Assembly (NCBI RefSeq): GCF_036014015.1
Contig: NZ_CP107905.1
Location: 8,060,001-8,124,000 of the forward strand
Reading direction: 5' to 3'
DNA length: 64,000 nucleotides
Source: Streptomyces sp. NBC_00457
GTDB lineage: Bacteria > Actinomycetota > Actinomycetes > Streptomycetales > Streptomycetaceae
In this document: piece after piece, positions 26,075 to 50,791 of the stretch
How the letters are laid out: every line of letters begins with the position of its first letter
Numbering within the stretch: position 1 is the stretch's first letter
The notes under the pieces: model-generated
Database searches by the model: none
The model's input: the letters and a program-made list of their open reading frames with translations, nothing else
Told to the model about the DNA's origin: nothing
Program-made: the position numbers and the translations under genes

Positions 26075-26263
26075 TCACCACCCCCGCGCGTGCCACTCCG
26101 GCAGATGCGGTCGCTCCGCGCCCAGGGACGTGTCGTTGCCGTGCCCCGGGTAGACCCAGGTCTCGTCCGGGAGGGCGGCGAAGATCTTCGTCTCGACGTC
26201 GTGGATCAGGCTGGCGAACGCCTTCGGGTCCTTGCGGGTGTTGCCCACGCCGCCCGGGAACAG
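26075..26263 (-). pseudogene. Displaced native 3' end of the MBL-fold hydrolase gene
   Basis: Sixty-two codons ending TGA encode the C-terminal tail of a metallo-beta-lactamase-fold protein: LFPGGVGNT...SLIHDVETKIFAALPDETWVYPGHGNDTSLGAERPHLPEWHARGW region. About 60% of residues match the tail of the intact gene at 50138-50791, which has the same orientation. No start or N-terminal domain exists here. The open frame begins exactly at the 14-bp core. Joining 50791-50324 to this piece would restore one continuous frame, so this is the host's own 3' end, cut off by the element. Confidence 0.9.
26250..26263. other. Left attachment core (attL)
   Basis: CCGCCCGGGAACAG, encoding LFPGG on the minus strand; identical to 50310-50323. 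Bases outside the core differ completely on both sides, as expected of a site-specific crossover. Confidence 0.8.
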
Positions 26264-26271
26264 CAAAGATC

Positions 26272-26313
26272 ACCGGGTAACACACCAAAGGTCTCCGGGT
26301 AACACAGCAAATG
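26272..26313 (+). repeat. Direct repeats in the left att arm
   Basis: CCGGGTAACACA occurs at 26273-26284 and 26295-26306, 22 bp apart, each followed by a similar CAAA sequence. They lie between the core and the integrase start, so they are candidate recombinase or regulator binding sites. Confidence 0.55.
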
Positions 26314-26420
26314 TGACCGCCAACCTTGCCCCCGCCCGCACCGTGGCGTTTCTGTACGCCCGTATCAACGAGGACCCCCGCGACCTGAAGCGCGGTGTCG
26401 ACCGACAGATGGACGACCCC
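26313..26420 (+). pseudogene. Serine integrase, N-terminal stub
   Basis: From GTG 26313 the frame reads VTANLAPARTVAFLYARIN then EDPRDLKRGVDRQMDD, matching the start of the resolvase/invertase domain of large serine recombinases (usual pattern YARISEDPRDLxRGVxRQ). After about 36 residues the match ends abruptly where sequence from the end of a radical SAM gene begins on the other strand. The position normally held by the catalytic serine (YARIS) is Asn (AAC). Its place 50 bp from the core is typical of an integrase gene next to attP. It is a deletion remnant and cannot be functional. Confidence 0.75.
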
Positions 26421-26435
26421 CGAGCCAACGCCCTC

Positions 26436-27255
26436 TCAGATCAGCGAGAGCTGCGTCGGCTCGCTCACCGGCTCGTCGACCGGCTGCGCCGGCTCGGGAA
26501 TCCGGCGGGGCATGCCCGCGCGCGGGACGGATGCCGTACTCCTGCGCCAGGTCGTGGACCTGACGGGTGATCCGGCGCTGGTACCACTTCGGTGCGTACG
26601 AGCCCTCCGCGTACAGCCGCTCGTAACGGCGCATCAGATGCGGGTGGTGGTGTCCGAGCCAGGCCATGAACCACTCTCGGGCGCCGGGCCGCAGATACAG
26701 CACCAGGGGAGTCACCGAGCTGGCCCCGGAGGCCGCTATCGCCCTTACAGTGGCCCGCAGTTGGGCCGGGTGGTCGCTCAGGAAGGGGATCACCGGTGCC
26801 ATCAGGACCCCGACGTCGATGCCGTGCTCGGTCAGTGTCCGTACGGCGTCCAGGCGCCGCTCCGGGGAGGGCGTGCCGGGTTCCACCGTGCGCCACAGCG
26901 CGGGGTCGGTGAAGCCGACGGAGGCGGAGATGCCGACGTCGGTGACCTGGGAGGCCTGCACCAGGAGGTCCAGGTCGCGCAGGATCAGCGTGCCCTTCGT
27001 GAGGATCGAGAAGGGGTTCGCGTGGTCGCGCAGGGCGCCGAGGATGCCCGGCATCAGCCGGTAGCGGCCCTCCGCTCGCTGGTCGCAGTCGACGTTCGTG
27101 CCCATCGCGATGTACTCGCCGAGCCAGCGCCGTGAGCCGAGCTGGCGGCGCAGCAGGTCCGGGGCGTTCACCTTGACGACGATCTGCGAGTCGAAGCCGA
27201 GGCCGGTGTCGAGGTCCAGATAGCTGTGGGTCTTGCGGGCGAAGCAGTACACGCA
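26436..27255 (-). pseudogene. Rv2578c-family radical SAM protein, truncated and frameshifted
   Basis: The remnant begins at CVYCFARKTHSYLDLDTG and continues through IVVKVNAPDLLRRQL, ILTKGTLILRDLDLL, VGISASVGF and VLMAPVIPFLSDHPAQL, the SplB-like radical SAM family. Only the last two cysteines of CxxxCxxC remain: the sequence upstream of 27255 is unrelated, so the N-terminus is lost. Near 26513-26527 the frame slips after QEYGIRPARG; a small deletion in the CGCGCG run moves the natural tail MPRRIPEPAQPVDEPVSEP (stop TGA 26436-26438) out of frame, and the current frame runs on to 26365. Confidence 0.85.
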
Positions 27256-27372
27256 GGTACTGCTTCACCCTCGGTATCTTCTCGTGTCCGAGGCGGGAGG
27301 CATGAGGCAGGGTCGTTTCAAAGTCCTGTTTGCGGGTGATCGTGCAGGTCAGACACCCCATGTCGTTTGATG

Positions 27373-28599
27373 TCAAGCGGCAGGGGTGTAGGCGTGGTGC
27401 GACCAGGCGGTCGCTTCGTCGTAGAGGGTTCGGGTCTTGAGGCATCCGTGGAGGATGCCGACGAGACGGTTGCCGAGCTGCCGCAGGGCCGGGTTGTAGC
27501 CGGCCTCGCGGGCTCGTTGCTTGTCGTAGTAGCGGCGGGCACCGGGCGAGGCCCGCAGGGCGGAGAACGCCTGGGTCTGCAGCGCATCGGCGAGCCGGTT
27601 GTTGCGGACGTAGCGGGCCTGGACGGTGTGGCTCTTGCCGGAGGCCCGGGTGATAGGGCTGGTGCCGGCGTAGTTCTTGCGCGCCTTCGCGGATGCGTAT
27701 CGGGTGGAGTCGTCTCCGAACTCGGCGAGCACCCGGGCGCCGGTGACGTGCGCGATGCCGGGCATCGAGAGGTAGATCTCAGCGTCCGGGTGCTTCAGAA
27801 AATGGGCCTTCACCTGCCCTTCCAGGTCGGCTATCTGCTCGTTCAGGGCGATCAGCAGCCGGGCGTGAGCGATGACGGTGGCCGCGTAGGCGGCCGTGAC
27901 CGGCTCGGGCAGGCCCAGCTGGCGTTCGCGCAGCGCGGCCTGGATCGTGGCCGCTTTCGCGTCCCGGTTGTGCCGGCGGGCACGGGCCAGGACGGCATGG
28001 ATCTGCGTGCGGGTCAGCTTCGCCCCGGTCTGCGGGGTGGGCGCCTTGATCAACAGTTCCAAGGCGTCCGTGCTGTTCAACGTGAGGTCCGCGTAGGCAG
28101 CCAGGGCGGCGGGGAAGTACTCGCGCAGCGTGCTGCGCAGCCGCTGGAAGGTGCGGGTGCGTTCCCAGATCAAGGTCTGGTGGGCGCGGGCGACAACCTT
28201 GACGGCCTGCGCCTGCTCGCTGTCCCCGGCCACCGGCCGCAACTGGGCCCGGTCGATGCGGACCATGTCGGCCAGCGCGTGCGCGTCTCCCCTGTCGCTC
28301 TTGGCGCCGGAGGAGGCATAGCGTTCCTTGAACCGGGCGACCTGCCGCGGGTTGATGGCATAGACCTGGTAGCCGGAGGCGATCAGGGCCTGTACCCAGG
28401 AGCCGCGGTCGGTCTCGATCCCGACCACCACTTCGGCGGCATCCAGGTCCCCGCCACCGTGCTTCGCGAGGAGCTCGTGCAGCTTCCCGATCCCCTCCAC
28501 ACCTTCGGGCAGTCTCGCCGCGGCGAGTTTGTGGCCTGCCTCGTCCTGGACCTCGACGTCATGGTGGTCTTCGGCCCAGTCGTCGCCGATCAGCAGCAA
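27373..28599 (-). CDS. IS110-family transposase
   Basis: About 408 residues. N-terminal DEDD (RuvC-like) domain: LLIGDDWAEDHHDVEV, VVGIETDRGSWVQALIASGY, and KSDRGDAHALADMVRID. The C-terminal transposase_20 domain has LSMPGIAHVTGARVLAEFGDDSTRYASAKARKNYAGTSPITRASGKS with the conserved serine. TTG 28599 preceded by AGGAGG five bases away is the best start; GTG 28653 would add an unmatched 18 residues. IS110 elements use a bridge RNA from a flanking non-coding end and leave little or no terminal repeat, so I cannot mark the exact ends. Intact and probably active. Confidence 0.92.
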   Translation of the reverse strand: MLLIGDDWAEDHHDVEVQDEAGHKLAAARLPEGVEGIGKLHELLAKHGGGDLDAAEVVVGIETDRGSWVQALIASGYQVYAINPRQVARFKERYASSGAKSDRGDAHALADMVRIDRAQLRPVAGDSEQAQAVKVVARAHQTLIWERTRTFQRLRSTLREYFPAALAAYADLTLNSTDALELLIKAPTPQTGAKLTRTQIHAVLARARRHNRDAKAATIQAALRERQLGLPEPVTAAYAATVIAHARLLIALNEQIADLEGQVKAHFLKHPDAEIYLSMPGIAHVTGARVLAEFGDDSTRYASAKARKNYAGTSPITRASGKSHTVQARYVRNNRLADALQTQAFSALRASPGARRYYDKQRAREAGYNPALRQLGNRLVGILHGCLKTRTLYDEATAWSHHAYTPAA

Positions 28600-28862
28600 C
28601 TCGTCCTCCTGGTCAGGTGCTTCGCTCCTTGCAGCCTGCGGAAGGCACGGCACGTGGCCTAATGGATCCAGTGCTCACGCCCCACTGCCCGGCGGGCACG
28701 CCACCCCATCAACGGTCTGGCCTCCCGGCCGACCAGCAGGGGCACGGTCTGACCTCAGAAGTCGAATGCTTCCGGCGACGAAAGTGCTCACCTACTGGCG
28801 GCTACGGCATCGAGTCTCTACGACCCAACAGCTCCCATTAGGCGATGCCGAGTAGGTCGAGC
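28600..28862. other. Non-coding stretch next to IS110
   Basis: No gene seen. Because it lies on the 5' side of the IS110 transposase gene it may include that element's non-coding end, but no fold or repeat that I can assign is visible. Confidence 0.3.
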
Positions 28863-29077
28863 GGCCTGTTGAAGGGGTCGTGGCCGCCGCGGTCCGGGCT
28901 CTGGGCCTGAGCTGGGGGTGCTTCACGTCGAGCTGCGGCTGACGGCGAGCGGTCCCCGCGTGATCGAGGTCAACCGTCGGCCGGCGGGGGACCTCATACC
29001 ACTCCTCGTCGAGCGGGCCACCGGCATCAACATCTCCCAGGCCCTGGCCACCCTCGCCACTGGCGAGACGCCCGACC
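28863..29077 (+). pseudogene. ATP-grasp ligase fragment
   Basis: The piece VVAAAVRALGLSWG continues one base out of frame as VLHVELRLTASGPRVIEVN then RRPAGDLIPLLVERATGINI, the catalytic metal-binding segment of carbamoyl-phosphate-synthase-like ATP-grasp enzymes (E in HVEL and N in EVN bind Mg-ATP). One G is missing from the run at 28914-28919, and the 3' side is cut by the IS5-like element at 29077. No start or N-terminal lobe is present. Confidence 0.7.
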
Positions 29078-30127
29078 TAACGACCTCGTGCACGGTTGGC
29101 CGCGCCACGTCGAGGTCTATGCGCTGGCGGTGTTCACGCTCGACGACCGCGGGAGCGGGTGGCGGTCTGCTGGTGTGAGAGTAGTCCGGCGACGGCTTGG
29201 ACGATGTCGCTCATGTGTCGCGGCGGCCGAGGTGGCGGGCCAGAGACCGCCAGTTCTTCAGGTGTGCGATGCCGTGCTCGACGCGGATGCGGCGTGAGGA
29301 GTGTGCCTTGCGCTGCAGTTCGTATCGCTCCTCGTACCAGGCGGGAGCGTTCTTCTTGAACTTGCGGTGGGGCGGTGTCACCACCCGTCCGCCGGTCTGC
29401 GCGCCCATGCCTTGATAGCCGGCGTCCGCAAGGATCTCCATGAAGGGGCCGTCGGCCAGGAGCTTGACCAGTCCGAGCTGTCGGGCCTGGGTGATGTCGG
29501 CGCAGCTGCCGGGCCGGACCGGGCTGCAGAACAGCACGCGTCCCTCGGCGTCCGTGAGGACCATGGACTTCACGGCGTTCTGCTTGGTCTTGCCGGAGAC
29601 GAACTTGTCCCGGTCCTTGCGGCCTGCGGCCGGGCGCCGCACGCGGATCTCCGTGCCGTCGATGATCCCGGTTCGACCGTCGGTGCCCAGGTGCTCGATG
29701 ACCTCGGTGAGGGAGCGCAGCCGGATGCCCGGTGCGACGTGCAGCCTCGTTGCGCCAGCAGGGGCCGCACCTCGCCGATGGCGCGGGTGATGGTGGAGCG
29801 GTCCACGCCGAACCAGCAGGCCAGCACGTCATGAGTGGTGCCGTGGCGCAGATTCACCAGCGTGGCCAGCAGCCGGTCGACGAAGACGAACCTGTACTTC
29901 GCCCCGGCTCCCACCGCCCGCCGCCGCGGCCGAGCCGTGAGCCGAGCGTGATGCTGCTCGTGCCACAACGGCCCTACCTCGGCGATGAGTTCAGCGATCA
30001 CATCCGGCGACAGCCCGGTGATCCGGTACTCCGCCACGATCAACTCACGCGCCCCAGCCCTTACCATGATCAGTGCAACGAGCAACCTGGGCGCCGGGCC
30101 ACTGCCAACCGTGCACGAGGTCGTTAG
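29077..30127 (-). mobile_element. IS5-like insertion sequence
   Basis: Bounded by perfect 24-bp terminal inverted repeats, CTAACGACCTCGTGCACGGT... at 29077-29100 and its complement at 30104-30127, about 1.05 kb in all. It carries one frameshifted transposase. It sits inside the ATP-grasp fragment. The CTAA/TTAG ends suggest a short T-A-rich target duplication of the IS5 type, but I cannot fix its length. Confidence 0.88.
29211..30085 (-). pseudogene. IS5-family DDE transposase, frameshifted
   Basis: The N-terminal half (30085 to about 29745) has an HTH/Tnp_4 start: ITGLSPDVIAELIAEVGPLW, VFVDRLLATLVNLRHGTTHDVLACWFGVDRSTITRAIGEV. After LLAQRGCT the frame is lost; the next frame continues to RKDRDKFVSGKTKQNAVKSM, GSCADITQARQLG, ILADAGYQGMG and RRIRVEHGIAHLKNWRSLARHLGR, with the D and E of the DDE catalytic triad. 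A single missing base in ACG(G)TCGCA near 29746 explains it. No slippery heptamer is visible, so I favour inactivation over programmed frameshifting. Confidence 0.82.
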
Positions 30128-30449
30128 AAGCGAGGGTGAGGCATGACTGACGGGCGTCGCATCCGGCTACGCACCAATCTAACTAGTACTCCGGCAGCGT
30201 TTCGCTATCTGGCCTGGTCCGAGGCGTCGCTGGGAGTGCAATGGCCAGGCGGCGGGCCGGTAGCAAACTCGGTAGAAGACCCCTCCAACGAGGCCGTCGG
30301 GGCACTGGCTGAGGCCCAGTACGGGCAGGGCCCGAACATGAGCGACGACACGGCGGACGCAACGCACAATTTCACCTGGCGCCACGAGCGGGCCGGCAGT
30401 ATCTCCCCGCCACGGTCTGTCTGTTGGGCATCGACGTGCTGTGCCGCTG

Positions 30450-30665
30450 GGCGGGTTCGCGTCGGACGCGCATCCGTGACCGGCGGCAGCACTATGCGGA
30501 AGGCCGCCCCTTGTCCCGGACCGGTGGTCATTTCGACCCGTCCATGGTGGGCGGTGTGACCAGGGACTGGACGATGGAAGGGCCGAGACCCGCCCCAGCG
30601 CCACGGGCGCGGGGAGCAGGAACTGTCGGCGCGGTAGAAGCGTTCGAAGGAACACACAGCGTCGA
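30450..30665 (-). pseudogene. Sensor histidine kinase, C-terminal fragment
   Basis: Pieces in neighbouring frames add up to the end of a HATPase domain: FERFYRADSS, then GGLGPSIVQSLVT (G2 box), then AHHGRVEMTTGPGQGAAFRIVLPPV. At least two small indels separate them; between the last two pieces an extra AC in GTCAC(AC)CGCC near 30557 shifts the frame. The rest of the kinase is absent. A decayed cargo or host gene scrap. Confidence 0.65.
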
Positions 30666-31253
30666 TCAAGGGCTCGGCATCTCCGCCCTCAAGGACTGGA
30701 AGCGCACCGAACGTAACATCGCTGCCTTCGTCGCAAGTTGCCGGAAGTCCCTGCATGAGCTTGCCCCCGTGGAGCAGCGAAGCAGGCTGTGAGGCCACGG
30801 CGACCTCCTGCAAACCCATGACGGGGACAGGCAGACAGTTGTTCGCGCCCTCTTCCAACTGCAGCGCCAAGAAGTGCACTTGGAACCAGCACTGCTGGCC
30901 AGCCACTCGGATCACCTGATCCGCCTTCTGGCGGCAGGCCTGTGGTGCGAGGCCAAGAATGCCGACCCCGTCACTGGGGAGGTTCTCGCCCGAGACCGGA
31001 ACGCACTGGTACGTCAGTACATGGCCCTGCATGCCGACGGGGCTCACTTCCAGGAGCTTCTGAGAAAGGATCCCCGACGGTCTGTTCGCTCGCGTGTGCC
31101 CCTTCACCAGAGCTGAGCGGCTCATCGCTCCCCGACTCGGATCTCATCCGCGTCAACGGCCGCACGTCAAAGTAGTCGCCTGGCGGGAGTTCTCGCCACC
31201 ACCGGCACGACCATGGTCGTCGTCACCCAAACGGCAGCCCCGCGAGCACCCAC
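30666..31253. other. Degenerate stretch without a recognisable gene
   Basis: A plus-strand open frame around 30874-31116 (LLASHSDHLIRLLAAGLWCEAKNADP...) has coding-like composition but no start signal and no family I recognise. It is most likely another remnant. Nothing else supported. Confidence 0.4.
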
Positions 31254-31497: not shown

Positions 31498-34400
31498 TCA
31501 CAGCTTGACCGAAATCGCACCCGCGCCCGCCGGTCCGCCGAAGGCGAGCAGCGGATCCGAGAGCTGCGGATCGCCCTCGGTGGGCAGGGCGCAGAGCGAC
31601 GTCAGAGCAGCGCCAGTGACGACACGCGCCAGCTCATCGCCCGTGCGGGGATCCCACACGCGCACGGTGGTGTCCTGTTGGCCTGCCGTGGCAAGTAGGC
31701 ATGGTGCGGTGGGTGAAGCTTGGAAGCTAGTAATGGCGGTGACCGGGCCCTGATGGCCGTGCAGTACGGGGTACGCCTCCCGCCTCGGTGCCTCCGGGGA
31801 CCAGAGGCGGACGGTGCCGTCGGAGCCTCCGGTGGCGAGGAGGATAGAACCGTCCTCCGCCGTCCATGTAGTCAGGCAACCGACGACGCCGATACGCCGA
31901 GGGAGCAGTGGTGCGGATGGCTGCTCGGGACGGCAGAACCGTACGGCGGCAGCGGCTGAGAAGGCCACCATCACGCCATCCGGGTGTGGCAGAGCCGCCA
32001 GGGCGCGGACCGCTCCTCTTTCATGGATGACAGACCACGGCTCGCGGGTGTCCAAGTCGTGGAAGGTCACGGTGCCTGAACTGGTACCGCTGGCCAGGAA
32101 CACCTGGTCCGTGCCATCTGCCCGGAACGTGGCCAGGGCACGTGTCCGGGTCAGCCTATGTATCGGCATGAGCCGCTCCATCGCCTCGATCGGATCATGC
32201 ATGCGAAACCAGCCGTTTTCCTGGTCCCAACGGAAGATGTCGCCACGGAACGTGCCCGCAATCACTGATACCGACCCATTGGGCCACAGGTGGCTGGTGA
32301 TAGCGGTCAGCCCCTCGGGGGCCACCTCTTCGGGCAGACTGAACTGCTGCAGTACTTCTCCGGTGGCGGCTGCGGTGACGTTGAGGAAGCGAATGGAGAT
32401 CGGTCTCAGAAGGCGGGTCGCCCCTCCCGGCGCGGGCAGCGGGGCCAGGAGTGAACCGTCACTCGGCTCTTCCCAGCGTGTAGCTCGGAGTGATGCGGGG
32501 GCGGAAGGGTCCCAGATCCGCACGGTGTGATCGTCGGATCCGGACACCAGCAGCGGTGGCCTCCCTCCCGTGTCGAGGATGGCCAGGCCCTTGACCCTCT
32601 TGTCGTGGTCGGCTGCGAACTCGCTCACCGCCGCCCCAGTTTCTGGATCCCAGAGGCGTACAGGCCCGCCCCGGCTGGGGCCTAGAGCAAGCAGCATTCC
32701 TCTGCGGGGATCGGGGCCGACGGGGTACAAGCAGATGGCCACGGCAGACTCGCGGATGACAGGTGCGGTCTCCTCGCCTGTCCACGCGTCGTAGTTGCGC
32801 ACGGACCCCGTGGACCGTGAAGCCGCGGCCATCCGCGGCCTGCCGTCAGGGTCGAGGTACAGGGCGAGCGCCGAGACCCCTCGTCCTTGGCCCGCGACCT
32901 GAATGACCGGCCGGAGCGACTCGGCATCGAGAATCTCGACCGTGCTGCCCTCTCCGCCGACGGCGAGCAGGGGCTGGCCGGTGGGCAGCCGCAGCGCCGC
33001 AAGGGCCTTGACCGAATCGCCCCACATGGTTGCCCGGGGTGTTCTGGAAAGCACCTGCCGGACGAGAGGATCGCAGATCACTAGGCCCTCGGTGGTGCCC
33101 AGCGCCAGCCGGGCACTGCCGCCCGCTGTGGCGAAGACGGCCAGGGCGTGCACAGGGACCGAAACGGGGAGGTGGTCGATCCGGCCGCTCTGCGGATCGT
33201 AGAGCCACGCGCCGTTGTTGCAGCCGACCGCAAGGAGGGGTTCTCCCTGGTGGCCAGCCAGCACAGCCAGGGCACGTGCGTATGGAGCGCGGCGTACGGG
33301 CAGCCCGAAGTCGGTGCCGGAGAGCGGGTCCCACAGGCGGACCTCGCCACTGGTGTCTCCGGCCGCCACGAGGAGGGTGCCGTCGGGCAGAGTGAAGGAC
33401 ACGAGGGAGGAGACTGGCGCATGGGAGCGACCCAGCAGGTTTCCGGCCAGCCGCAATTCGTTCCACTGCGGGGCGAGACGCGGCTGTGTAGGTGCCTCAT
33501 CGTGCTCGCTGCGGGTGGTCGGCCCCGCTTCGTCCACCGTCACGTCCTGCGCGCTGAATGCGATGCCGTCGTAGTCGCTGGCCATTCCGAAGGCGGCCAG
33601 GGCCAGGCTGTCGGCGCGTGCCGAGTGCAGGGCATCGGCGAGGAACGGCTCGATACGTGCCCAGGAGGCCAAGTGCAGCGTCCGGGACGTCGGGTTCGAA
33701 GGGAGCCCGAGAGCGCCCCGTACGGTGCCGCTGGTCTCCCAGGGCAGGAAGTGCGTCGGAACGTGACCGCCGTCGAGGGCCTTGGCGGCTGTGGAGTGGG
33801 CCACTAGGTGGCGCCGCAGATAGGGGTGCGGTGCCTGATGGTGGCTCGCGCGGGGAATCAGCCGCTCGAACGCCTCGACCAGTGACCGGTGAGTAGCCGT
33901 GATCTCCTCGTCCGAGAGTCTCTCCCGCCCGCCTGTTTTCGGGGCGCCGACGAGGGTGTGCGGGGCGTACCGGAGTGTTTCGCTGATCCGCTCGTGCACC
34001 GGCCGGTATACCGTCCTGCCGTCCTCGATGGCGGTGATGAGGTAGCCGGAGAGGCGGCTGTCCCAGACTTTGCGGATGACGTCGTCTGGGTCGGTGACGG
34101 GGGACGGTGACAGGCACTCTACGGCGGTTGGCCAGATATCAGCCCATGGCAGGCCAGCTCCGTGCGCGAATGCGGTGGCGCGCAGTGCGGACATGAGTTG
34201 CTCAGTGGCCGTGGAGTGTGTGTCGGCGACCTCAAGGAGGTCTTCCCGCAGGAGGGCTTCGGTGCCCTGCCGCAGGGTCTGGAGCCATTCAGGGTCCTCC
34301 GGATCGGGCAGGGTGCGCCGTGCCCGGAGCCGCTGGGCAGCGATGCGGGCGTCCAGGAAGGAAGGGGCCACCTCCCGGGCCATTGTCTCGGCCAGTTCTC

Positions 34401-36063
34401 CGTAGCGGTCCAGCAGCGACGCCGACGGAACCTCTCCACCTTCCTGGTCCCCGAATGGTGCCTCCAGCAACGCGAAGGCGTACGCGGCAATGTCCGGCGT
34501 GGCGTCAGGATCGTCCGTACGAAGTGGGGGACCGGCGGCAGTGGCCCGGATCAGCAGGTCGAGGAGGTCCGGGGCCTGCGGGCGGACGGTCGGAGCGCCG
34601 CCTTGGGCCGACGTACCGAACGAGCTACTGCGGATGCCGAGCAGCAGCCGGACGGCAGGCCGTTCGTCTGGCATCCGCAGATCCGCCAGCGGCCGCAAAA
34701 GGTCGGTGATGGTGCGCGTCGGGTTCCTGGCTTCATCAATGCCGTCTACCACGAGGGTCAGCGGCTCGCCCTGCTGCCGAGCCGTGCTCTGCACCAGGCT
34801 CCGCAGCCGAGCGAGATGTCCGCTCTCGTAGCCACCGGCCCCGAACGGGACTGCCCGGCCCGGGGCGTCGCCGAGCGCCTCGCAGAGCACCCGGGCGAGC
34901 TCGTCCGGGTCGGTGTTGCGGGCGAGAACGGCAGCGTCCACGGAGCCTTCCGGGACCTGAAGTTCCTCCGGTATCTCGGCGACCAGCGCGCGGTACGTCT
35001 CGTCGGCTCGGAAGCGGGTGTCGCTGAGGGTCACCGTACGGGCCAGGAGGGCGGATTTTCCGGAGCCGGCGACCCCGGTAACGATCAGTACGCCTTCGGC
35101 GCCGGTCAAGAAGGAGAGGATGCGCTTGACCAGCTTGGTGCGGCCGGTGAAGTACCAGCTGGGACTCTCCTGTTCGGAGGCGCCGGTGGCACGCGAGACC
35201 CAGAATGTGTCGAGCTGGGCCTGTGTCCACCCGACTTGGCGGGAGGAAGCCCTCAGCACCGGTTCGCTCCCCGTGTGGCCGGGGTTGGGGAGGCAGGGGC
35301 TCAGCCGTTCCTGTGCCCTCTCCATGCTCGCCGACGGTGTGGGCCAGGCGTACGTGAGGTCGGCCATGGTGCTCTCGTCGAACACCTCGTTGACGATGCC
35401 CTTCCAGTCCTGCCAGCTGAGGTGCGGCTCGGCGAAGCCGTTGGTCTTGTCCTCGCAGTGTGCGCGCACGGCTCGCAGGATGTTGGCGAAGGCGTTCGTG
35501 CGGGGCGTGCTCTGGTCGTTCCCGGCGACGAGGACGACCAGCGAGCCGAGGGCGCGGCGCTCCTGCCGTAGGCCGTTCAGCATGGTCTTGAGCTCGGTCT
35601 CGAGCCGACCGGAGAAGCATGAGTCCACCATCACCAGGACGTGCGTGGCGTGGGAGTCCAGCACGGTGGTGATGATCTCGGCGGTCGGGAACGCGGTGGC
35701 GTACGGCCTTTCCACGTACGTGTCCCGCAACTGAAGGAAATGCTGGGGGGAGTTAGTCGGGGCCAAACCGTGCCCGGTGATGTAGACGACGAGGGCTTCG
35801 TCGTCGTCCGCATTCCCGAGGTCTTCCTCTATGAGGAAGGTGCGCAGATCGCGCAGATCGTGGAGCTGCTTAGCTTCGGAGGGCTCGAAACGGCGCGCGT
35901 TGTCGAGAGAGGGGTGTGCCCACCAGTCCTTCACCGTCGTCACCTGCGCGGTGATTTCCTTGCTGAACGCCTGCTGCTTGGCTGCAGATCCGTCGTCGTA
36001 ATCCGAGATCGCGATGACGACGAGGCGGCGGGCGAAGGTATCCGGGGCTGGCGCGCGTGTCAC
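31498..36063 (-). CDS. Caspase-like protease / STAND NTPase / WD40 protein
   Basis: 1,521 residues. Residues 10-230 form a caspase/metacaspase p20-like domain: His98 in VVYITGHGL and Cys149 in VLVMVDSCFSG are the catalytic dyad. Residues 300-620 are a STAND-type NTPase with Walker A GVAGSGKS (330-337) and Walker B LTLVVDGIDE (435-444). A helical region follows, and from about residue 866 to the end there are repeated WD40 blades (GEVRLWDPLSG, HTVRIWDPSAP, GTVRLWSPEAP, TTVRVWDPRTG). The layout is that of sensor-switch-effector proteins: WD40 as trigger sensor, NTPase as oligomerising switch, caspase as protease. GTG 36063 overlaps the upstream hydrolase stop (GTGA), so translation is coupled. 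Likely role, inferred: abortive-infection or programmed cell death. Confidence 0.93.
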   Translation of the reverse strand: MTRAPAPDTFARRLVVIAISDYDDGSAAKQQAFSKEITAQVTTVKDWWAHPSLDNARRFEPSEAKQLHDLRDLRTFLIEEDLGNADDDEALVVYITGHGLAPTNSPQHFLQLRDTYVERPYATAFPTAEIITTVLDSHATHVLVMVDSCFSGRLETELKTMLNGLRQERRALGSLVVLVAGNDQSTPRTNAFANILRAVRAHCEDKTNGFAEPHLSWQDWKGIVNEVFDESTMADLTYAWPTPSASMERAQERLSPCLPNPGHTGSEPVLRASSRQVGWTQAQLDTFWVSRATGASEQESPSWYFTGRTKLVKRILSFLTGAEGVLIVTGVAGSGKSALLARTVTLSDTRFRADETYRALVAEIPEELQVPEGSVDAAVLARNTDPDELARVLCEALGDAPGRAVPFGAGGYESGHLARLRSLVQSTARQQGEPLTLVVDGIDEARNPTRTITDLLRPLADLRMPDERPAVRLLLGIRSSSFGTSAQGGAPTVRPQAPDLLDLLIRATAAGPPLRTDDPDATPDIAAYAFALLEAPFGDQEGGEVPSASLLDRYGELAETMAREVAPSFLDARIAAQRLRARRTLPDPEDPEWLQTLRQGTEALLREDLLEVADTHSTATEQLMSALRATAFAHGAGLPWADIWPTAVECLSPSPVTDPDDVIRKVWDSRLSGYLITAIEDGRTVYRPVHERISETLRYAPHTLVGAPKTGGRERLSDEEITATHRSLVEAFERLIPRASHHQAPHPYLRRHLVAHSTAAKALDGGHVPTHFLPWETSGTVRGALGLPSNPTSRTLHLASWARIEPFLADALHSARADSLALAAFGMASDYDGIAFSAQDVTVDEAGPTTRSEHDEAPTQPRLAPQWNELRLAGNLLGRSHAPVSSLVSFTLPDGTLLVAAGDTSGEVRLWDPLSGTDFGLPVRRAPYARALAVLAGHQGEPLLAVGCNNGAWLYDPQSGRIDHLPVSVPVHALAVFATAGGSARLALGTTEGLVICDPLVRQVLSRTPRATMWGDSVKALAALRLPTGQPLLAVGGEGSTVEILDAESLRPVIQVAGQGRGVSALALYLDPDGRPRMAAASRSTGSVRNYDAWTGEETAPVIRESAVAICLYPVGPDPRRGMLLALGPSRGGPVRLWDPETGAAVSEFAADHDKRVKGLAILDTGGRPPLLVSGSDDHTVRIWDPSAPASLRATRWEEPSDGSLLAPLPAPGGATRLLRPISIRFLNVTAAATGEVLQQFSLPEEVAPEGLTAITSHLWPNGSVSVIAGTFRGDIFRWDQENGWFRMHDPIEAMERLMPIHRLTRTRALATFRADGTDQVFLASGTSSGTVTFHDLDTREPWSVIHERGAVRALAALPHPDGVMVAFSAAAAVRFCRPEQPSAPLLPRRIGVVGCLTTWTAEDGSILLATGGSDGTVRLWSPEAPRREAYPVLHGHQGPVTAITSFQASPTAPCLLATAGQQDTTVRVWDPRTGDELARVVTGAALTSLCALPTEGDPQLSDPLLAFGGPAGAGAISVKL

Positions 36064-36938
36064 GGTTGACCGCCCGTCATGGCGCGGGCAACCGGCACAC
36101 TGCGGAGATACCTCAGGGCGCTGTGCGGGTCACCGATGCCGTTGTTCACCTGGGCTTCGGTGAGCTTCCGCGCGCCGGCGGAAAGGCTTGCGCCTCCGGT
36201 GATGAAGTCGTTGGGGTCGAAGACATTAACCCACCTGATGTTCGAGTCGAGCTGGAGGGGCGTGCCGTCGGTGATTCCCATAAGCCGCCGCACGGCGGGA
36301 ATGCCCAACGGCGATCCGCAGGTCACCAGCGTGTGCAGGGCAGAGCCGGGCGTGTCGGCAGCACTGACCTCCTTGCGGCGGAGCAGATCGTAGGCGATGA
36401 CGCTGCCGAGCGAATGGCCGATGACCACGGCGGTATCCAGCGTGAACCCGTCCCGGACGAATGCCCGCACCTCGGCAGCTAAGGCCGGCTTGGTGAGGTA
36501 ATAGCGCACCTCCCGCATGCGCCGGACGAAGAACTGCACGCCACCACCCGGATAACGGCGGTCATAGGCCATCGCCAGCCGGGTCAACCGCGGTGACCAC
36601 AGCTTGGGCAGTCCCAGGGTTGCCATGGGTTGGGTCTCGGCGAAGGCTACGTCCTCGGGCCGTACAAGGTCGGCGAAGGCCTCGGCGACGAACTCTTCTT
36701 CCGTTAGCTCCATCGGCACGGACTCGCCGAAGAGGTCGTCCTCGGGGCCAAGACAGTCCGTTCCCCTCGCCAGGAGCGCCGTCCAGTGCGGCACTTCGAG
36801 GGACGTCCCACAGGCTGCTACGTCGGGCAGCGAGTCGATGCCGCGCTGGAGCGCCCGGCCCCAGTCGGCGGTCAGCTGATGCTGGGAGGTTTTCGACTGC
36901 CCGATTCCGTGCACGCCGACGACCGGTATTGTCTGCAC
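36060..36938 (-). CDS. Alpha/beta hydrolase paired with the caspase-STAND protein
   Basis: 292 residues from GTG 36938. The oxyanion-region motif VVGVHGIGQSK opens the protein and the nucleophile elbow is VVIGHSLGSVIAYDLL (Ser176); a candidate acid and His follow in VNVFDPNDF and GDPHSALRYL. It resembles lipase/serine-esterase-like hydrolases, without signal peptide, so it acts in the cytoplasm. It is first in a two-gene operon, its stop overlapping the next start by four bases. In conflict systems such hydrolases can be second effectors (membrane or ester attack), or substrates cleaved by the protease; both are inference. Confidence 0.88.
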   Translation of the reverse strand: MQTIPVVGVHGIGQSKTSQHQLTADWGRALQRGIDSLPDVAACGTSLEVPHWTALLARGTDCLGPEDDLFGESVPMELTEEEFVAEAFADLVRPEDVAFAETQPMATLGLPKLWSPRLTRLAMAYDRRYPGGGVQFFVRRMREVRYYLTKPALAAEVRAFVRDGFTLDTAVVIGHSLGSVIAYDLLRRKEVSAADTPGSALHTLVTCGSPLGIPAVRRLMGITDGTPLQLDSNIRWVNVFDPNDFITGGASLSAGARKLTEAQVNNGIGDPHSALRYLRSVPVARAMTGGQP

Positions 36939-45239: not shown

Positions 45240-45259
45240 AACCGCAGGAGGAAAGCCCG

Positions 45260-46357
45260 TTGACCACCGCCACCGAGCACCTGTCAGGAGAGGCCGGCGC
45301 GGTTCTCGTTCCGGCCGCGTCCGAGGGGCGGCCCGCCCTCGTCGTCCAGTGGGCGCAGCGCCACGGCGTGGAGGTCGCCCAGCGCCTCGCCGACGCCGAG
45401 GACTTCGCCGACGAGGTCCAGCGGCGGCTGCGCCCAGCGAACACGACGGAGACCTACTCGAAGTCGTGGAAGGTCTGGACGCGGTTCTGCGCCGCGCAGC
45501 AGCTCCCTGAGCTGGAGGCCACGCGCGGTGCCCTGGTGGCGTTCGTGATGTGGATGCTGGACCGGGGCCAGACGAACGGGAAGGGCTACGCCTCGTCGTC
45601 GGCCGGGACGATCCTCGCCGGGGCTGTCGTGGAGCTGCGCCGCCGTGGCGCGGAGGTGAGCAGGGACGACCAGGCGCAGGCCCGCGGGACGTTGGAGGCT
45701 GCCTCCGTCGAACTCCTCAAGGCCGGGGAGCGACGCGGCCGGGGCCAGGCGGCGGCTGCCGAAGTCCCGGACATGTACCGGGTGGTGCGGGCCTGCCCCG
45801 ACACCCTCGCCGGGGCCCGGGACAAGGCGCTCATCCTGACCGGCTTCCACTACGCCTCGCGCGCCCAGGACCCCGCCGGCCTCCTCGCCGGGGACGTCGC
45901 CCTCACGCCGCGCGGCCTGGTCGTATCCGTGCTCACCGGCAAGACCAAGCACAGCGTCCGTGACGCGAAGATCAACTATCAGGACGACCCGGAGGTCTGC
46001 CCCGTGGAGGCGTGGAAGGCGTACCGGCGCCGCCTCGCCGCCGAGGCCGAGCCGCGCTGGTCCGAGCCGACCGCGCCCGCGTTCGTCGGTGTCGACCGGC
46101 ACGGCAACGTCACCGGCGGCATGGTCCCCGACTCCGTCACCCGGGCCGTGAAGCGGATCAGCGTCCGCGCGGGTGTCGCTCTAGCGTGGACCGGCCACAG
46201 CCTCCGCATCGGCCTGGCCACGACCGCCCGCAAGAAGGGGAAGGACGCCGTGGCGATCGCCGACCAGGGCGGATGGGCCCGGCACTCTCGCTCCATGAAC
46301 GGCTACTTCCAGCGGGTCGACGGCTGGGAGGACAACGCGACCGCCGGCCTCACCTGA
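45260..46357 (+). CDS. Tyrosine recombinase (phage-integrase family)
   Basis: 365 residues from TTG 45260 after GGAGGAA. The N-terminal SAM-like core-binding domain is at about 55-145. Catalytic residues are visible: Arg201 (HYASRAQDPAGL), Lys228/230 (TGKTKH), His313-x-x-Arg316 (GHSLRIGLA), His342 (GGWARHSRSM) and the nucleophile Tyr349 (NGYFQ). All members of the R-K-H-R-H-Y set are present, so it should be active. It is about 5 kb from the right core, not at an end, so it may be the element's integrase, belong to a nested element, or act in resolution. Confidence 0.92.
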   Translation: MTTATEHLSGEAGAVLVPAASEGRPALVVQWAQRHGVEVAQRLADAEDFADEVQRRLRPANTTETYSKSWKVWTRFCAAQQLPELEATRGALVAFVMWMLDRGQTNGKGYASSSAGTILAGAVVELRRRGAEVSRDDQAQARGTLEAASVELLKAGERRGRGQAAAAEVPDMYRVVRACPDTLAGARDKALILTGFHYASRAQDPAGLLAGDVALTPRGLVVSVLTGKTKHSVRDAKINYQDDPEVCPVEAWKAYRRRLAAEAEPRWSEPTAPAFVGVDRHGNVTGGMVPDSVTRAVKRISVRAGVALAWTGHSLRIGLATTARKKGKDAVAIADQGGWARHSRSMNGYFQRVDGWEDNATAGLT

Positions 46358-46386
46358 CATCGCCAGACCAGCCAGGAGGAGACCCC

Positions 46387-47052
46387 GTGGGGCGCACCAT
46401 CCATGAGGACATCGCCGAGGATGAGTTGGCCGACATGCTGGCCGACGCCGACAAGGCGAAGCACCTGCACGCCGTGGCCGCCCGGCTGCGTGAGGGACGC
46501 TTTCCTGACTGGCTCGCCGCCATGGTCGGGCAGACGCCGTCGCAACCGGGGTCCTGGCCGCCGCACCAGGTCGCCGCGTTCGCGAGCGTCCTGACGAGGC
46601 TCGCCTTCGGCCGGGTCGCCCGCCGCCGTATCCGGCTCGGGGCGTCTCCCGGAGCGGACGCCGACCGCACTGGCAACGCCGCTCGCCTCCAGGGCCTCCC
46701 GGCGCCGTTCGTGGCCCACCTCAGCATGACCCAACACGGGGCTGACTGTGACGGCCTGCTGGAGTGGACAGAGCCTGTCGTGACGTGGCGCAGCACGGCC
46801 ACGCCCGTCCTGGGGGCGCACGTGCTCCACGGGGCCATTCAGGCGCCGTTCGAGGTACGCCCGTCCTCAGTACCGCTGGAGGTCGGATACACCCTGCCAA
46901 GCCGCACCTTCGCGCACCTGCTCACGGAGGGCGCCGTGGCCCGCTGGCCGTACGACGACGAGGTGCACCTCCTGGTAGATCTGGAGCGGGCCGGGCTGTT
47001 CATGGGAGCGCGTCCGCTCCCCGCTGACGTGGAGCCGGTGAGGATGCTGTGA
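46387..47052 (+). CDS. Hypothetical protein downstream of the recombinase
   Basis: 221 residues from GTG 46387, with GGAGGAG upstream and only 29 bp from the recombinase stop, so in the same transcript. The first 65 residues are helical (EDIAEDELADMLADADKAKHLHAVAARLREG). The C-terminal part (APFVAHLSMTQHGADCDGLLEW ... FAHLLTEGAVARWPYDDEVHLLVDLERAGLFMG) is beta-rich. No recognised domain. Confidence 0.65.
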   Translation: MGRTIHEDIAEDELADMLADADKAKHLHAVAARLREGRFPDWLAAMVGQTPSQPGSWPPHQVAAFASVLTRLAFGRVARRRIRLGASPGADADRTGNAARLQGLPAPFVAHLSMTQHGADCDGLLEWTEPVVTWRSTATPVLGAHVLHGAIQAPFEVRPSSVPLEVGYTLPSRTFAHLLTEGAVARWPYDDEVHLLVDLERAGLFMGARPLPADVEPVRML

Positions 47053-47100
47053 CCGGCCCGGGGGAAGCGCGCAGCCGGGCCGTACCGGCTGGAGGCAGCC

Positions 47101-48277
47101 GTGAGCTTCACTGCCGTTCACCCGGACCGGGGTCGTCTGGACGCCTCTCTGCCGGATCTTGGCTGCGGCTGGCAGTGGGAAGCGGTCCACCGGGTACGGC
47201 CGCCGGCCCCGCTGGCCTGCCCGGAGTGCGGCCACGGGATGCACGCCAAGGTGTCGAGCCTGGGACTGCGATTCTTCGCCCATGCGCCGGGGGCTCCGAC
47301 CTGCACGCTGGCGGAGGAGTCCATGGCCCACCACCTGCTCAAACTGGAGCTTGCCCAGGCAGCCCGCGCGGCCGGGTGGATGGCCGAGCTAGAGGTGAGC
47401 GGGCCAGACGGCAGTTGGCGGGCGGACGTCCTCACCTCCACGGCCAGCGGCCGCCGGATCGCCCTGGAGGCGCAGTTGGCAAGCATCACCATTGCCGACA
47501 TCCGCGACCGCACGGTGCGGATGAGCTCTTACGGAGTCCGTTCCTGCTGGTTCAGCGACCGCGGCCGCATCCCCTGGCTAGGCGCCGTGCCCTCAGTACG
47601 GTTGGCCCGGCAGGGTGACGACCTGGTCGCCGTCGAACCCATGGCCCGGTTCGACGACGCCTACTGGACCCCCGAGCCGTCCCATGCCGCTCACCGAGTT
47701 CGTGGGCAGGCTCCTTACCTCGCGGGTCATCTCGCATACTCCACGCACGCCACAGCGGCACGTGGCCCGGTCCGTGGCGCGGCTTTGGGCCCACCCCAGA
47801 TGCGTTCTGGCGGAAGCCAAGAAGCTGGGGGCCGAGGAAAGACAGCAGCGTGCGGTGCGGGAGGAGCAGGAGCGTGCCGAGCGACGCGGTTACGCCCGAC
47901 AGGAGGCGGCGCTCGCCGAACGTAGGGCCCGCACTGACCCCGACCGGGGGGCCCTGGCCTGGCACTCCGCGCGGCTGCCTGGGATAGACCAGGCCATTGC
48001 CCAGGTCGCCGCAAGGTATCTCGGGCGCATGCGCGTGACCGTCGGCTGGAGCGTAGGAGACAGCCGGTACGCCTGCGGGGTCCCGCTCGTCAACGAGAAC
48101 GGGACCCTCCTCGGTGTCTTCGATCCGCTCCCGCAGGCCGGCCCTTGCCCCGCGTTCCTCCTTGACGTCGACCTGCCGCTGCTTTTCCCGACGGAGGAAC
48201 GGCGCGAACACTTCGAGCAGTACAGGGCGATCAGTGAGCGGGTCCGGGCGGCCAACCAATCCCCCGACCTTGAGTAA
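47101..48277 (+). pseudogene. CoiA-like nuclease gene, frameshifted
   Basis: GTG 47101 after GGAGG. The N-terminal zinc ribbon is CPECGHGMHAKVSS...HAPGAPTC. A restriction-type nuclease core follows: WRADVLT (catalytic Asp) and RIALEAQLAS (E-x-Q), as in CoiA competence proteins. After MARFDDAYWTPEPS (near 47680) the frame is lost; MPLTEFVGRLLTSRVISH then continues to 48277 with a helical domain rich in Arg/Glu (AEERQQRAVREEQERAERR). The whole protein would be about 390 residues. The nuclease domain itself stays in the first frame and might still be made. Confidence 0.72.
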
Positions 48278-48298
48278 GGGGAGCGCGGCCGGCGGGGT

Positions 48299-48568
48299 CT
48301 ACAACGACCGGAGCACGTCGGCGCAGTCGCGGCACTCCCAGTCGCTCATGTTGGGCGGTAGCCACGGCGCGCTCGGGCCCGAAGGCTGGTAGTTCACCCG
48401 CTCCATGTCCAGGGTCGGCTTCCCGCAGAACGTCCGGTCGTCCGGGTCTCCCGAGACATCCGAGTCGGCCGGCGCCGCGTGTACCGCCTTGATGAACGAG
48501 ACCGCAGTGCCTGGGCCGAAGTCCTGTGACATTTCTTTGCGCAGCTCGCGCAGCACGACGATCGTCAT
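48299..48568 (-). CDS. Small hypothetical protein, Cys-containing
   Basis: 89 residues from ATG 48568, preceded by GAAGGTGG. It ends PPNMSDWECRDCADVLRSL, with an earlier RTFCGKPTLD; the three cysteines may bind zinc. Convergent with the CoiA-like gene (21 bp between stops). Family unknown. Confidence 0.6.
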   Translation of the reverse strand: MTIVVLRELRKEMSQDFGPGTAVSFIKAVHAAPADSDVSGDPDDRTFCGKPTLDMERVNYQPSGPSAPWLPPNMSDWECRDCADVLRSL

Positions 48569-48760
48569 GTGGCCACCTTCGGCTCTGTCTGTCACGGCCG
48601 CATCCCGGGCCGCCGCAAGTCGGGGTGTCGGGAAGACCACGTCACCAGCCGCAAACGACGGCAATCAGTGCCTGGTCTTGCGGCTGGTAGTTCAAACGCG
48701 CGTGATGCGACCAGACCGACAAAAGCGGCAGACAGTACCTGACCGCCTTAGCCTGCGATC

Positions 48761-49387
48761 ATGGGTACCGAGCCGGACGTGGCCGCGCGCCTGGCCGCCA
48801 TCCGCCGGATGCAGCGCCGGGCGGAGCGCGCCTCCCGGCGTGCCTACCTGGCGCTCGGCATGACCGATCCGCCGCCCCTGACGATGTGGCGCCGGATCGC
48901 CGTCGTCTATTGGAAATGGGTGCGCTGGCCCTTCTTCGTTTGGTTCCGCCACCGAGGGGTTTGGCTCTTCGTTGCGCTGGGGGCTATGTACGTGACGGTC
49001 ACTGTTGTTCTTGGCTTCCGTTGGGTCCTGGCCGCTCGATTCATGCTCGGGTATGCGGATCCGTTCGCTCCCAAAGGCGATCTACATCTACGACCTGTTC
49101 AACAGTTCATGGCGATCGTTCTCCGTTTCGCTGGCTGGCTCGCGGTTCCGGCGGCGGTGGGTTCGGCGGCCGGACTTCTCGCTGCGGAGCAGAAAAGGCT
49201 GCTGTACACCCGTGACCCAGAGTCAACGCCTACCCGGTCGAGGACTTCCCGGTTCCTCCTGTGGATCTTCGCGGTGATCACTTGGCCGATCAAGTGGGTG
49301 GTCTGGCCGTTCGTCTGGCCGTTCGTTTACCCGTTCGTCTACTTGTTCAGATGCCTTGGCCGGAGGGTGGGTGGTCAGTCCGGATGA
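48761..49387 (+). CDS. Membrane protein of unknown function
   Basis: 208 residues. A charged N-terminus (AARLAAIRRMQRRAERASRRAY) precedes an aromatic-rich membrane region: WKWVRWPFFVWFRHRGVWLFVALGAMYVTVTVV, then AIVLRFAGWLAVPAAVGSAAGLLA, and a C-terminal Trp/Phe/Pro repeat WPFVWPFVYPFVYLF. Three to four helices. It overlaps the next gene as ATGA. Unusually Trp-rich for a Streptomyces protein. Confidence 0.65.
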   Translation: MGTEPDVAARLAAIRRMQRRAERASRRAYLALGMTDPPPLTMWRRIAVVYWKWVRWPFFVWFRHRGVWLFVALGAMYVTVTVVLGFRWVLAARFMLGYADPFAPKGDLHLRPVQQFMAIVLRFAGWLAVPAAVGSAAGLLAAEQKRLLYTRDPESTPTRSRTSRFLLWIFAVITWPIKWVVWPFVWPFVYPFVYLFRCLGRRVGGQSG

Positions 49388-49632
49388 GCAGCCTCTTTGA
49401 TCCCCGGCCGGAGACACCCGCTGACCTGAGAATGTGCATCCGCTTTCGAGACCTTCACGCGGGGAGACCTGGTCGTGCGGAGAACCACTACAGCCGGATT
49501 GAGGGCTGGGTCTCGCAGTTTCCGCATGTGCACGGTCAACCGGAGTCTGCGGTGCGGCGTGCTGCGCTGGAGTTCATGAAGAGAACGATCTTCGGTAATC
49601 CGGCGGGGGTGTGCAAGTTCTGTCGCCGGTAA
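49384..49632 (+). CDS. Small hypothetical protein, coupled to membrane gene
   Basis: 82 residues from ATG 49384, overlapping the previous stop by four bases. MCIRFRDLHAGRPGRAENHYSRIEGWVSQFPHVHGQPESAVRRAALEFMKRTIFG ends VCKFCRR; the Cys pair may hold a metal with the two His. No family recognised. Confidence 0.6.
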   Translation: MSSLFDPRPETPADLRMCIRFRDLHAGRPGRAENHYSRIEGWVSQFPHVHGQPESAVRRAALEFMKRTIFGNPAGVCKFCRR

Positions 49633-49654
49633 GCGGAAGCAGTATGGTGGCGGC

Positions 49655-49939
49655 ATGGGCCATGGCCGTGCACTGAGCTACTCAGAAGTTTCTTCGACGG
49701 AAGAAGCGGACCTCGTCAAGGATGTGCTTAACGACGCTCACAGCATGGAGCTCTTTTCCGGGTCGCTACCCGGGGCTTCCGCGGAGGAGGTAGAAGCGGC
49801 AGTCAGGGCGTGGGCGCATGGCTACCTCCAGAGGCAATCCGCTGCCGTAGCTCAAGGCCGGCAGCCGCGGGAACTGGGTAGGGCCGTGACAGCGGAGGCT
49901 TCAAGCGTGCGGCCACGCAAGAGCGATGCCCCTCGTTGA
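49655..49939 (+). CDS. Small acidic hypothetical protein
   Basis: 94 residues from ATG 49655, 22 bp after the previous gene. Helical, acidic first half (SSTEEADLVKDVLNDAHSMELF) and a basic tail. It is the last gene of the element before the att core. Function unknown. Confidence 0.55.
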   Translation: MGHGRALSYSEVSSTEEADLVKDVLNDAHSMELFSGSLPGASAEEVEAAVRAWAHGYLQRQSAAVAQGRQPRELGRAVTAEASSVRPRKSDAPR

Positions 49940-50090
49940 CTCTGTCCTGGCCGACCGCGTATTCGGCTGGTGACACGGTTCTTACCGGCACCCCACCTCC
50001 GGCGGTCTGCTGCTGGCGTCGGCGACGGAGTTCTGGACGCCACCGTCCGTGGGGCATGACGCTCCCCGAGCGCCGACGGACTGAACGCGC

Positions 50091-50125
50091 GACCGCCCCC
50101 GCTTCGGTTAGAAACGGGGGCGGTC
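50091..50125. terminator. Hairpin between the element's last gene and the MBL gene
   Basis: GACCGCCCCCG (50091-50101) pairs with CGGGGGCGGTC (50115-50125), loop of 13. It lies 12 bp beyond the MBL stop on that strand and serves convergent transcripts. It is element-borne. Confidence 0.8.
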
Positions 50126-50137
50126 ATCGTTGGGCGG

Positions 50138-50791
50138 TTACCAGCCTCGTGCGCGCCACTCCGCGAGGAAAGGCCGCTCCGTGCCGATGGTGGTGTCGTT
50201 GCCGTGACCGGGGTAGATCCACGTCTCGTCGGGCAGTACGTCGAATAGCCTGGTCTCCAGGCCGCCCATCAGGGAGTTGAACTCCTCCGGACGTGTTGTC
50301 CGGCCAGGACCGCCCGGGAACAGGCAGTCGCCGGTGAAGACGTGGGGATGTCCGTGCGGGTCGTCGTAGACGAGGGCGATGGAGCCCGGCGTGTGCCCGA
50401 CCAGGTGGCGCGCGGTGAGTTCCACGTGTCCCACCCGGATGGTGTCGCCGTCGTCGACCAGGACGTCGGTCGGCACGGGGATGCCGTCTGCGTCGTCCCG
50501 GCCGGCGTAGGTGCGGGCGCCGGTGGCCGCGACGACCTCGGCGAGCGCCTGCCAGTGGTCCCCGTGCTGATGCGTGGTGACGACGGACGCGATGCCGTCG
50601 TCACCGATCATGCCGATCAGCGTCTCCGCGTCGTTGGCGGCGTCGATCAGCAGCTGCTCGTCCGTGGCCCGGCAGCGCAGCAGATAGCAGTTGTTGTCCA
50701 TCGGACCGACCGCGATCTTGGTGATCATCAGGTCCTTCAGCTCGTGCACGTCCGCCGGGCCGCCGGCCGTCACCTCTCCGCTGTACGTCAT
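50138..50791 (-). CDS. MBL-fold metallo-hydrolase (hybrid host/element gene)
   Basis: 217 residues, glyoxalase II-like. Metal ligands: THQHGDHW (77-84 region), HLVGHTPGS, GDCLFPGG and the last His in IYPGHGND. The 5' part (50791 to about 50324) is host DNA next to the uvrA cluster. From the 14-bp core on (50310-50323), the final 56 residues come from the element and differ from the native tail at 26075-26263 (about 60% alike), yet keep YPGHGNDT and the EW-ARGW end. Function should therefore survive integration. Substrate unknown; hydroxyacylglutathione/mycothiol thioester hydrolysis is plausible. Confidence 0.92.
   Translation of the reverse strand: MTYSGEVTAGGPADVHELKDLMITKIAVGPMDNNCYLLRCRATDEQLLIDAANDAETLIGMIGDDGIASVVTTHQHGDHWQALAEVVAATGARTYAGRDDADGIPVPTDVLVDDGDTIRVGHVELTARHLVGHTPGSIALVYDDPHGHPHVFTGDCLFPGGPGRTTRPEEFNSLMGGLETRLFDVLPDETWIYPGHGNDTTIGTERPFLAEWRARGW
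50310..50323. other. Right attachment core (attR)
   Basis: CCGCCCGGGAACAG, identical to 26250-26263 and in the same codon phase of the MBL gene. On the element side lies a short inverted repeat CCGGAC-GTGTT-GTCCGG (50287-50303), a possible recombinase arm site. Confidence 0.8.

Follow-up and report, generated by a model that had tools for sequence, protein, structure and literature searches.

Gene-sparing integration of a Streptomyces element into an MBL-fold hydrolase gene, most probably by a family of large serine recombinases

An interrupted hydrolase gene and its empty site

We analysed a 64,000-nucleotide stretch of Streptomyces sp. NBC_00457 (contig NZ_CP107905.1, positions 8,060,001 to 8,124,000; hereafter the window), in which an integrated element lies between a gene for a metallo-beta-lactamase (MBL)-fold hydrolase and a second, headless copy of that gene's 3′ end, or tail (Table 1). 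The initial annotation had placed the gene at 50791–50138 and the headless tail at 26263–26075, both on the minus strand and both joined at the same 14 bp, CTGTTCCCGGGCGG (50323–50310 and 26263–26250), in equal codon phase and orientation; all of this was confirmed. Read in one frame, the junction of both tails is TTCCCGGGCGG, and the joint common to the element family is TTCCCNGGNGG. Since the element-side sequence before TTCCC varies between elements, the leading CTG of the 14-bp identity is partly coincidence. The exchange is C-terminal, as first described, and comprises 60 residues counted from the Phe codon rather than 56.

The two window tails are identical at 38 of 61 aligned residues (62%, differing at ~38%), in agreement with an earlier estimate of about 60%, and as DNA they form a 151-bp repeat of 73% identity (repeat family D3), a likeness far beyond chance. 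Both contain YPGHG, which we take to be a metal ligand motif. The solved chains closest to the MBL protein are hydroxyacylglutathione-hydrolase-like MBL proteins, and it resembles hydroxyacylglutathione hydrolases, yet scores far below that family's cut-off. An imperfect 22-bp direct repeat (86%) lies immediately before the headless tail, at 26260–26303.

Which tail is native can be read from relatives lacking the element, a comparison that the initial annotation had proposed. Our set comprised 392 Streptomyces genomes, given here by G-numbers (G000 is the window's own genome; L-numbers denote individual loci or contigs). In G022 (L010) the locus is uninterrupted: 2155 bp match window 52289–50140 at 93%, its gene head is closer to that of the window (96%) than any other native head compared, and the tail is 95.3% identical to window 26263–26071, after which the sequence runs on to aroQ. 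The same uninterrupted picture is found at L015 (G122). The empty site in G022 indicates that the tail beside aroQ is native, as had been supposed, and that the tail in use is foreign.

Recurrence of the two tails and the recombinase at the joint

Of the 392 genomes, 353 encode the native motif FPGGVGNT and 34 the substitute motif FPGGPGRTT; the surroundings of all 34 were read. One of these (G181) has no MBL gene and was dropped as a chance match, leaving 33 carriers with a substitute tail on the gene; a search for further elements ending in this tail had been suggested in the initial annotation. A headless native tail lies downstream in the same orientation in 24 of the 33, whole or nearly so in 18 (G000, G124, G013, G108, G164, G169, G352, G350, G342, G249, G343, G260, G354, G254, G149, G269, G290 and G097) and partial in 6 (G003, G110, G139, G361, G226 and G216), and the distance between tails ranges from ~1 kb (G139) up to ~93 kb (G097) and 217 kb (G290). 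A tree built from the gene heads (30 carriers and 52 native genes, a motif filter having removed 3/33 carriers and 6/58 native rows) requires a minimum of 19 changes in tail type, many of its forks being weakly supported.

Several loci show individual peculiarities. The attL-type gene of G290 (L167, L168) is ~217 kb from its recombinase and native tail, a spacing that may reflect a large element, accretion or rearrangement, and in G097 (L066, L257) ~93 kb separate the substitute-tail gene from a headless native tail that precedes aroQ. G216 (L157) has tandem elements, with a second substitute-tail joint 4.6 kb past the first, then another substitute tail, a recombinase fragment and the end of a native tail.

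At the headless tail of G164 (S. lucensis JCM 4490) begins a whole large serine recombinase (LSR) of 539 residues with the domains PF00239 (Resolvase) and PF07508 (Recombinase). At least 11 near-complete LSRs of this kind were found, in Streptomyces G164, G343 (S. resistomycificus), G350, G290 and G269 (the last two with one in-frame stop each), Streptomyces sp. AC1-42W, S. chryseus, S. benahoarensis, Kitasatospora sp. A2-31, a Streptosporangiaceae metagenome-assembled genome (MAG) and Micromonospora. Among the matches listed, a headless MBL tail lies at the 5′ end of 10 of the 11 near-complete LSRs and is native-type in nine; the Streptosporangiaceae LSR adjoins a substitute-type tail (FPGGAGRTT), as expected of an unintegrated attP. 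As controls, no MBL tail lay beside any of the 21 more distant Streptomyces LSR loci examined, or beside any of 18 distant loci in a class-wide sample, in which a few flanks were cut short; the two closest LSRs of that sample (L227 and L228) do have one.

In the window the LSR survives as an N-terminal relic. A tblastn match had spanned 26181–26423, part of which is antisense of the native tail and not LSR, so that the relic is limited to the interval in Table 1. Nothing else in G000 matches the G164 LSR (all 41 first-look candidates scored), and neither a whole integrase of this family nor a second copy was found in the strain, so the window element is probably now stuck. A radical-SAM-like open reading frame (ORF) at 26365–27252 on the minus strand, below the Pfam cut-off, overlaps the expected continuation of the LSR; its arrival may have coincided with the loss of that gene.

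The decisive point comes from free phages. Twelve Mycobacterium phage records (Larva, Kratio and Collard twice each, Edugator, AlleyCat, Psycho, Dadosky, Agent47 and InvictusManeo) encode an LSR 41–42% identical to that of G164, and all twelve have a substitute tail whose end is 6 bases away from the LSR match; these headless PGRTT tails are 66–69% identical to the window's. In free phages the LSR neighbours a substitute tail and in integrated copies a native-type one, the pattern that strand exchange predicts. Viral contigs L178 (115 kb, LSR 36%) and L180 (59.5 kb, LSR 47%) are likewise arranged as unintegrated elements; the two ends of L182 hold, respectively, a head with a PGRTT tail and an LSR with a PGKT tail. 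A Larva-type LSR (81%) in integrated form is seen in G589, a genome of the class, where the order is uvrA, an MBL head carrying a PGRTT tail, 9.3 kb, the LSR and a headless VGKT tail.

Gene maps were inspected for Larva and Kratio (both Kratiovirus) and Agent47. Larva gene 38 ('hydrolase', L172 3055–3186) is the attP-borne MBL tail, with counterparts in L225 and L226 annotated 'hydrolase' or hypothetical, and in all three phages the annotated start lies inside the tail, though the frame is open from the joint. Fourteen non-mycobacterial phage records also match the tail, the two inspected having whole MBL genes, and among plasmid records 33 match the tail and 33 the LSR.

We consider it very likely that elements of this family integrate into the MBL gene by means of their LSR and spare it by supplying its 3′ end. 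An element would enter at the Phe codon of the FPGG motif through a serine-recombinase exchange of attB with attP, the latter lying at the 5′ end of the LSR gene with a P′ arm that doubles as in-frame code for the last 60 MBL residues. The host head joined to the element tail would form attL and a whole hybrid gene, and the host tail, left headless beside the LSR gene, would form attR; the exchange point is probably the TT of TTCCC. As in other LSR-integrated elements, attP lies beside the integrase gene, and attL and attR flank the element. Integration inside the gene with in-frame 3′ replacement, as originally put forward, is supported by the empty site, the 24 of 33 two-tail carriers and the free phages with an unintegrated module. 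That account had lacked the LSR as agent, its reduction to a relic in the window, and the wide spread of the family.

Table 1. Coordinates of features in the window, with supporting observations.
Feature	Position	Strand	Remarks
aroQ, chromosomal, beside native tail	25348..25821	+	comes after intact MBL gene in relatives, e.g. L010
Headless native tail FPGGVGNT...RGW (attR, B′ side)	26075..26260	-	95.3% to intact gene of G022
Joint at attR, CTGTTCCCGGGCGG	26250..26263	-	sequence read
Element-side (P) arm, GTGTTACCC...	26261..26283	-	variant of GTGTTCAC arm of LSR-bearing relatives; spacing ~3 bp shorter
N-terminal LSR relic	26325..26423	+	22/33 residues identical to G164 LSR residues 40-72; next best place in window 12/33
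Tyrosine-recombinase-like gene, first of three-gene module	45260..46357	+	PF00589 just under cut-off; 78% in G343
Open frame, second of module	46354..47052	+	no family assignment; 88% over residues 9-232 in G343, same order
CoiA-nuclease-like gene, third of module	47101..47925	+	PF06054 E 2.3e-9; 93% over residues 1-152 in G343
MBL-fold hydrolase gene in use	50138..50791	-	217 aa, open; native head, foreign 3′ end; PF00753 E 3.4e-12
Substitute tail FPGGPGRTT...RGW, 60 residues (attL, P′ side)	50138..50320	-	same tail class in carriers and free phages
Joint at attL, CTGTTCCCGGGCGG	50310..50323	-	sequence read
Isomerase-like chromosomal gene upstream of MBL gene	50836..51729	-	upstream of MBL head in 30/30 loci checked
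uvrA, beyond isomerase-like gene	from 51735	+	chromosomal flank

Attachment arms, element content and competing explanations

Outside the joint, the element-side arm GTGTTCAC occurs ~26 bases before TTCCC in G343, G290, AC1-42W, S. chryseus, S. benahoarensis and Kitasatospora, the corresponding arm in Larva, Kratio and Agent47 is GTATTCAC, and variants resembling RTRTTACC occur in G169, the Streptosporangiaceae MAG and the window; the LSR frame could start within this motif. The P′ arm, TTCCCNGGNGGTCCTGGCCGGACAACA, has an unusual codon pattern. In the 30 parsed substitute tails, all of which are open to the stop, Thr7 and Thr8 are written with the rare codon ACA in 48 of 60 cases, which accounts for 2/129 of the other Thr codons in the tails and 10/403 of those in the heads, and G or C stands at the third position of codons 4, 7 and 8 in 19/90 cases against 1407/1580 elsewhere. 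The rows are related, so any p-value is nominal, and the rare-codon count was made after the same-codon measure given below had been seen. Rare ACA codons and low third-position GC point to a DNA-level constraint on the P′ arm besides coding, and the arm looks, judging from codon usage, to serve both as protein code and as recombination site.

This bears on the best-surviving of the alternatives, that the swap goes further than repair and the foreign tail is selected because it alters the enzyme in the element's favour. Some 38% of the residues differ and the P-type sequence is kept across genera; the rare codons, however, supply a DNA-level reason for that conservation, and the purifying selection on the tail is ordinary. 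The mean ratio of non-synonymous to synonymous polymorphism is 0.27 for substitute tails (23 of equal length), indicating purifying selection, and 0.17 for native tails (52); headless native tails showed no relaxation (0.23, 14 tails). We regard selection for an altered enzyme as improbable. On the simplest reading of these sequence comparisons, the swap would repair a gene worth keeping, and the hybrid enzyme, whole and in frame through its element-borne 3′ end, presumably works, possibly with changed activity.

A second alternative makes the tyrosine recombinase at 45260–46357 the integrase of the site and the LSR relic a bystander. No other whole recombinase was seen in the window element, a truncated copy abuts the headless tail in G342, and a fragment occurs in the G230 element. 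Against this, the 29 loci examined for it in other genomes have neither an MBL tail nor this LSR within ~1.5 kb, it is internal in the G343 element, whose whole LSR adjoins the tail, and tail-bearing phages have an LSR at the tail. A tyrosine integrase acting as in icd-type elements would be at odds with an LSR at the tail and a tyrosine gene inside the element, and we consider this explanation very unlikely. The three-gene module shared in the same order makes the window island look like a decayed relative of the G343 element, and it looks to have been enlarged by insertion sequences and cargo.

Among that added material are an insertion sequence at 29077–30127, bounded by imperfect inverted repeats of 36 bp and with its DDE transposase split over two frames that overlap, and an IS110-type transposase at 27373–28653. 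A protein of 1521 residues (31498–36063, minus strand) combines an AAA/STAND NTPase with C-terminal WD40 repeats and an N-terminus that appears caspase-like by eye; it had no PADLOC match and, as the sole window ORF compared with PHROGs, no match there, and its gene adjoins a weakly alpha/beta-hydrolase-like one (36060–36938). It is possibly defence or signalling cargo. PADLOC gave no match for the 8 window proteins submitted.

Elsewhere the same site holds smaller units. Inserts of 4.2–4.5 kb occur in G124, G013, G352, G249 and G260 (with a similar stretch in G216); those of G124 and G013 read as TetR, MFS and FAD-reductase genes (by Pfam for G124), and in none of the five was a recombinase match found beyond chance. 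The inserts are 94.8% identical between G249 and G260 (flanks 78–79%), 94.2% between G249 and G013 (flanks 78%) and 92.7% between G013 and G352 (flanks 84%). Inserts 92–95% identical within less similar flanks indicate that the units moved between species into the same site, and, having no recombinase, they presumably moved in trans. G343 and G290 are 98% identical over 2.7 kb past the tail. A broader proposal is that a cassette of LSR and attP, with a P′ arm that both binds the recombinase and encodes the end of a conserved host enzyme, is common to phages, elements resembling integrative and conjugative elements, and recombinase-less 4.4-kb cargo units in several actinobacterial families, that the cargo is moved by the LSRs of other elements, and that the MBL gene is a shared landing pad whose C-terminus has been swapped repeatedly; we hold the case for this evenly balanced.

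Several observations weigh against LSR-driven integration as a complete account. Nine of the 33 carriers have no downstream native tail, and six of the 24 tails found are fragments. Two of the stretches (G242, G028) end at a contig end before any native tail, G230 retains an LSR fragment alone, G049 and G201 reach aroQ 3.3 kb on with no native tail found, and G225 and G330 have none in the ~19 kb read. An LSR or a piece of one is present in only 13 of the 33 carriers (in the stretches read, the window included), and in G269 it lies 1.4 kb from the tail. In G254, G108, G269 and the cargo units, the P arms depart from the LSR motif. The same-codon measure is lower in the P′ arm (0.57 vs 0.76) and gives no sign of dual coding, and the attP symmetry, whose best centre would put a 2-bp exchange core at TT, lacks significance, 153 of 2000 shuffles scoring equally well. 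Head and tail identities are still correlated among carriers (0.46; native 0.58). Finally, insert-free relatives with a substitute-type tail, which the initial annotation had taken to speak against insertion, do exist: in G160 (L064) and G272 (L159) a PGRTT-type tail is directly adjacent to aroQ. These two are in the minority, and either the scar of a lost element or recombinational exchange may explain them.

These two genomes, together with some tails that appear mixed, are what favours a third explanation, in which tails are exchanged through homologous recombination or gene conversion and the island is unrelated. The second tail at the far side of the insert in 24 of 33 carriers, and the G249/G260 inserts being so much more alike than their flanks, argue against it, and we give it slightly less credence even than the tyrosine recombinase. 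Duplication of the MBL gene into two paralogues, one of them broken, could account for tails 73% alike as DNA, but is rejected as scarcely credible, given the empty site in G022, whose uninterrupted sequence the aroQ-side tail continues from the joint on, the recombinase at the joint, and the free phages with a lone attP-borne tail.

Significance and relation to known systems

If LSR-mediated integration is correct, a serine-recombinase family has been shown to use gene-sparing integration into one protein-coding gene. The element family spans soil bacteria and free viruses of their relatives, and the host retains a whole hybrid gene. This accounts for the stray 'hydrolase' gene annotated in mycobacteriophage genomes, and the many orthologous LSRs come with natural attB/attP pairs. 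In the P′ arm, selection has apparently acted on a single stretch for its protein code and for its role in recombination alike, and mobilisation in trans can be put to the test with the cargo units that have no recombinase.

Actinobacterial integrative and conjugative elements mostly use tyrosine integrases at tRNA genes and are characterised by an FtsK/TraB-like translocase and a Rep protein; in the present family, the G169 and G269 elements encode FtsK-like proteins, and no such gene was found among the window ORFs tested. Phage 21 and e14 integrate near the 3′ end of icd in Escherichia coli and bring a substitute end, using a tyrosine integrase and a longer homologous core. The parallel drawn with them in the initial annotation is apt in that a coding gene is entered near its 3′ end, which the element replaces, and is kept whole; the agent here is a serine recombinase rather than a tyrosine integrase, the joint is 11 bp and the tails are 62% identical. 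The LSR elements of Durrant et al. 2022 (PMC10083194) are, in the portion of that paper available, similar in having attB in host genes; the target genes are there spoken of as 'disrupted', and that portion of the main text contains no mention of metallo, MBL, hydrolase or restor, just as the available part of the text of PMC3203893 contains none of Larva. Replacement of a 3′ end is already known; its LSR version at an MBL gene is new to us, and we make no claim that it is unpublished. Larva, Kratio and their kin have LSRs related to that of G164 and, like the family described here, an attP whose PGRTT tail is immediately next to the start of the LSR; they are whole phages, whereas the window element keeps only a relic of its LSR.

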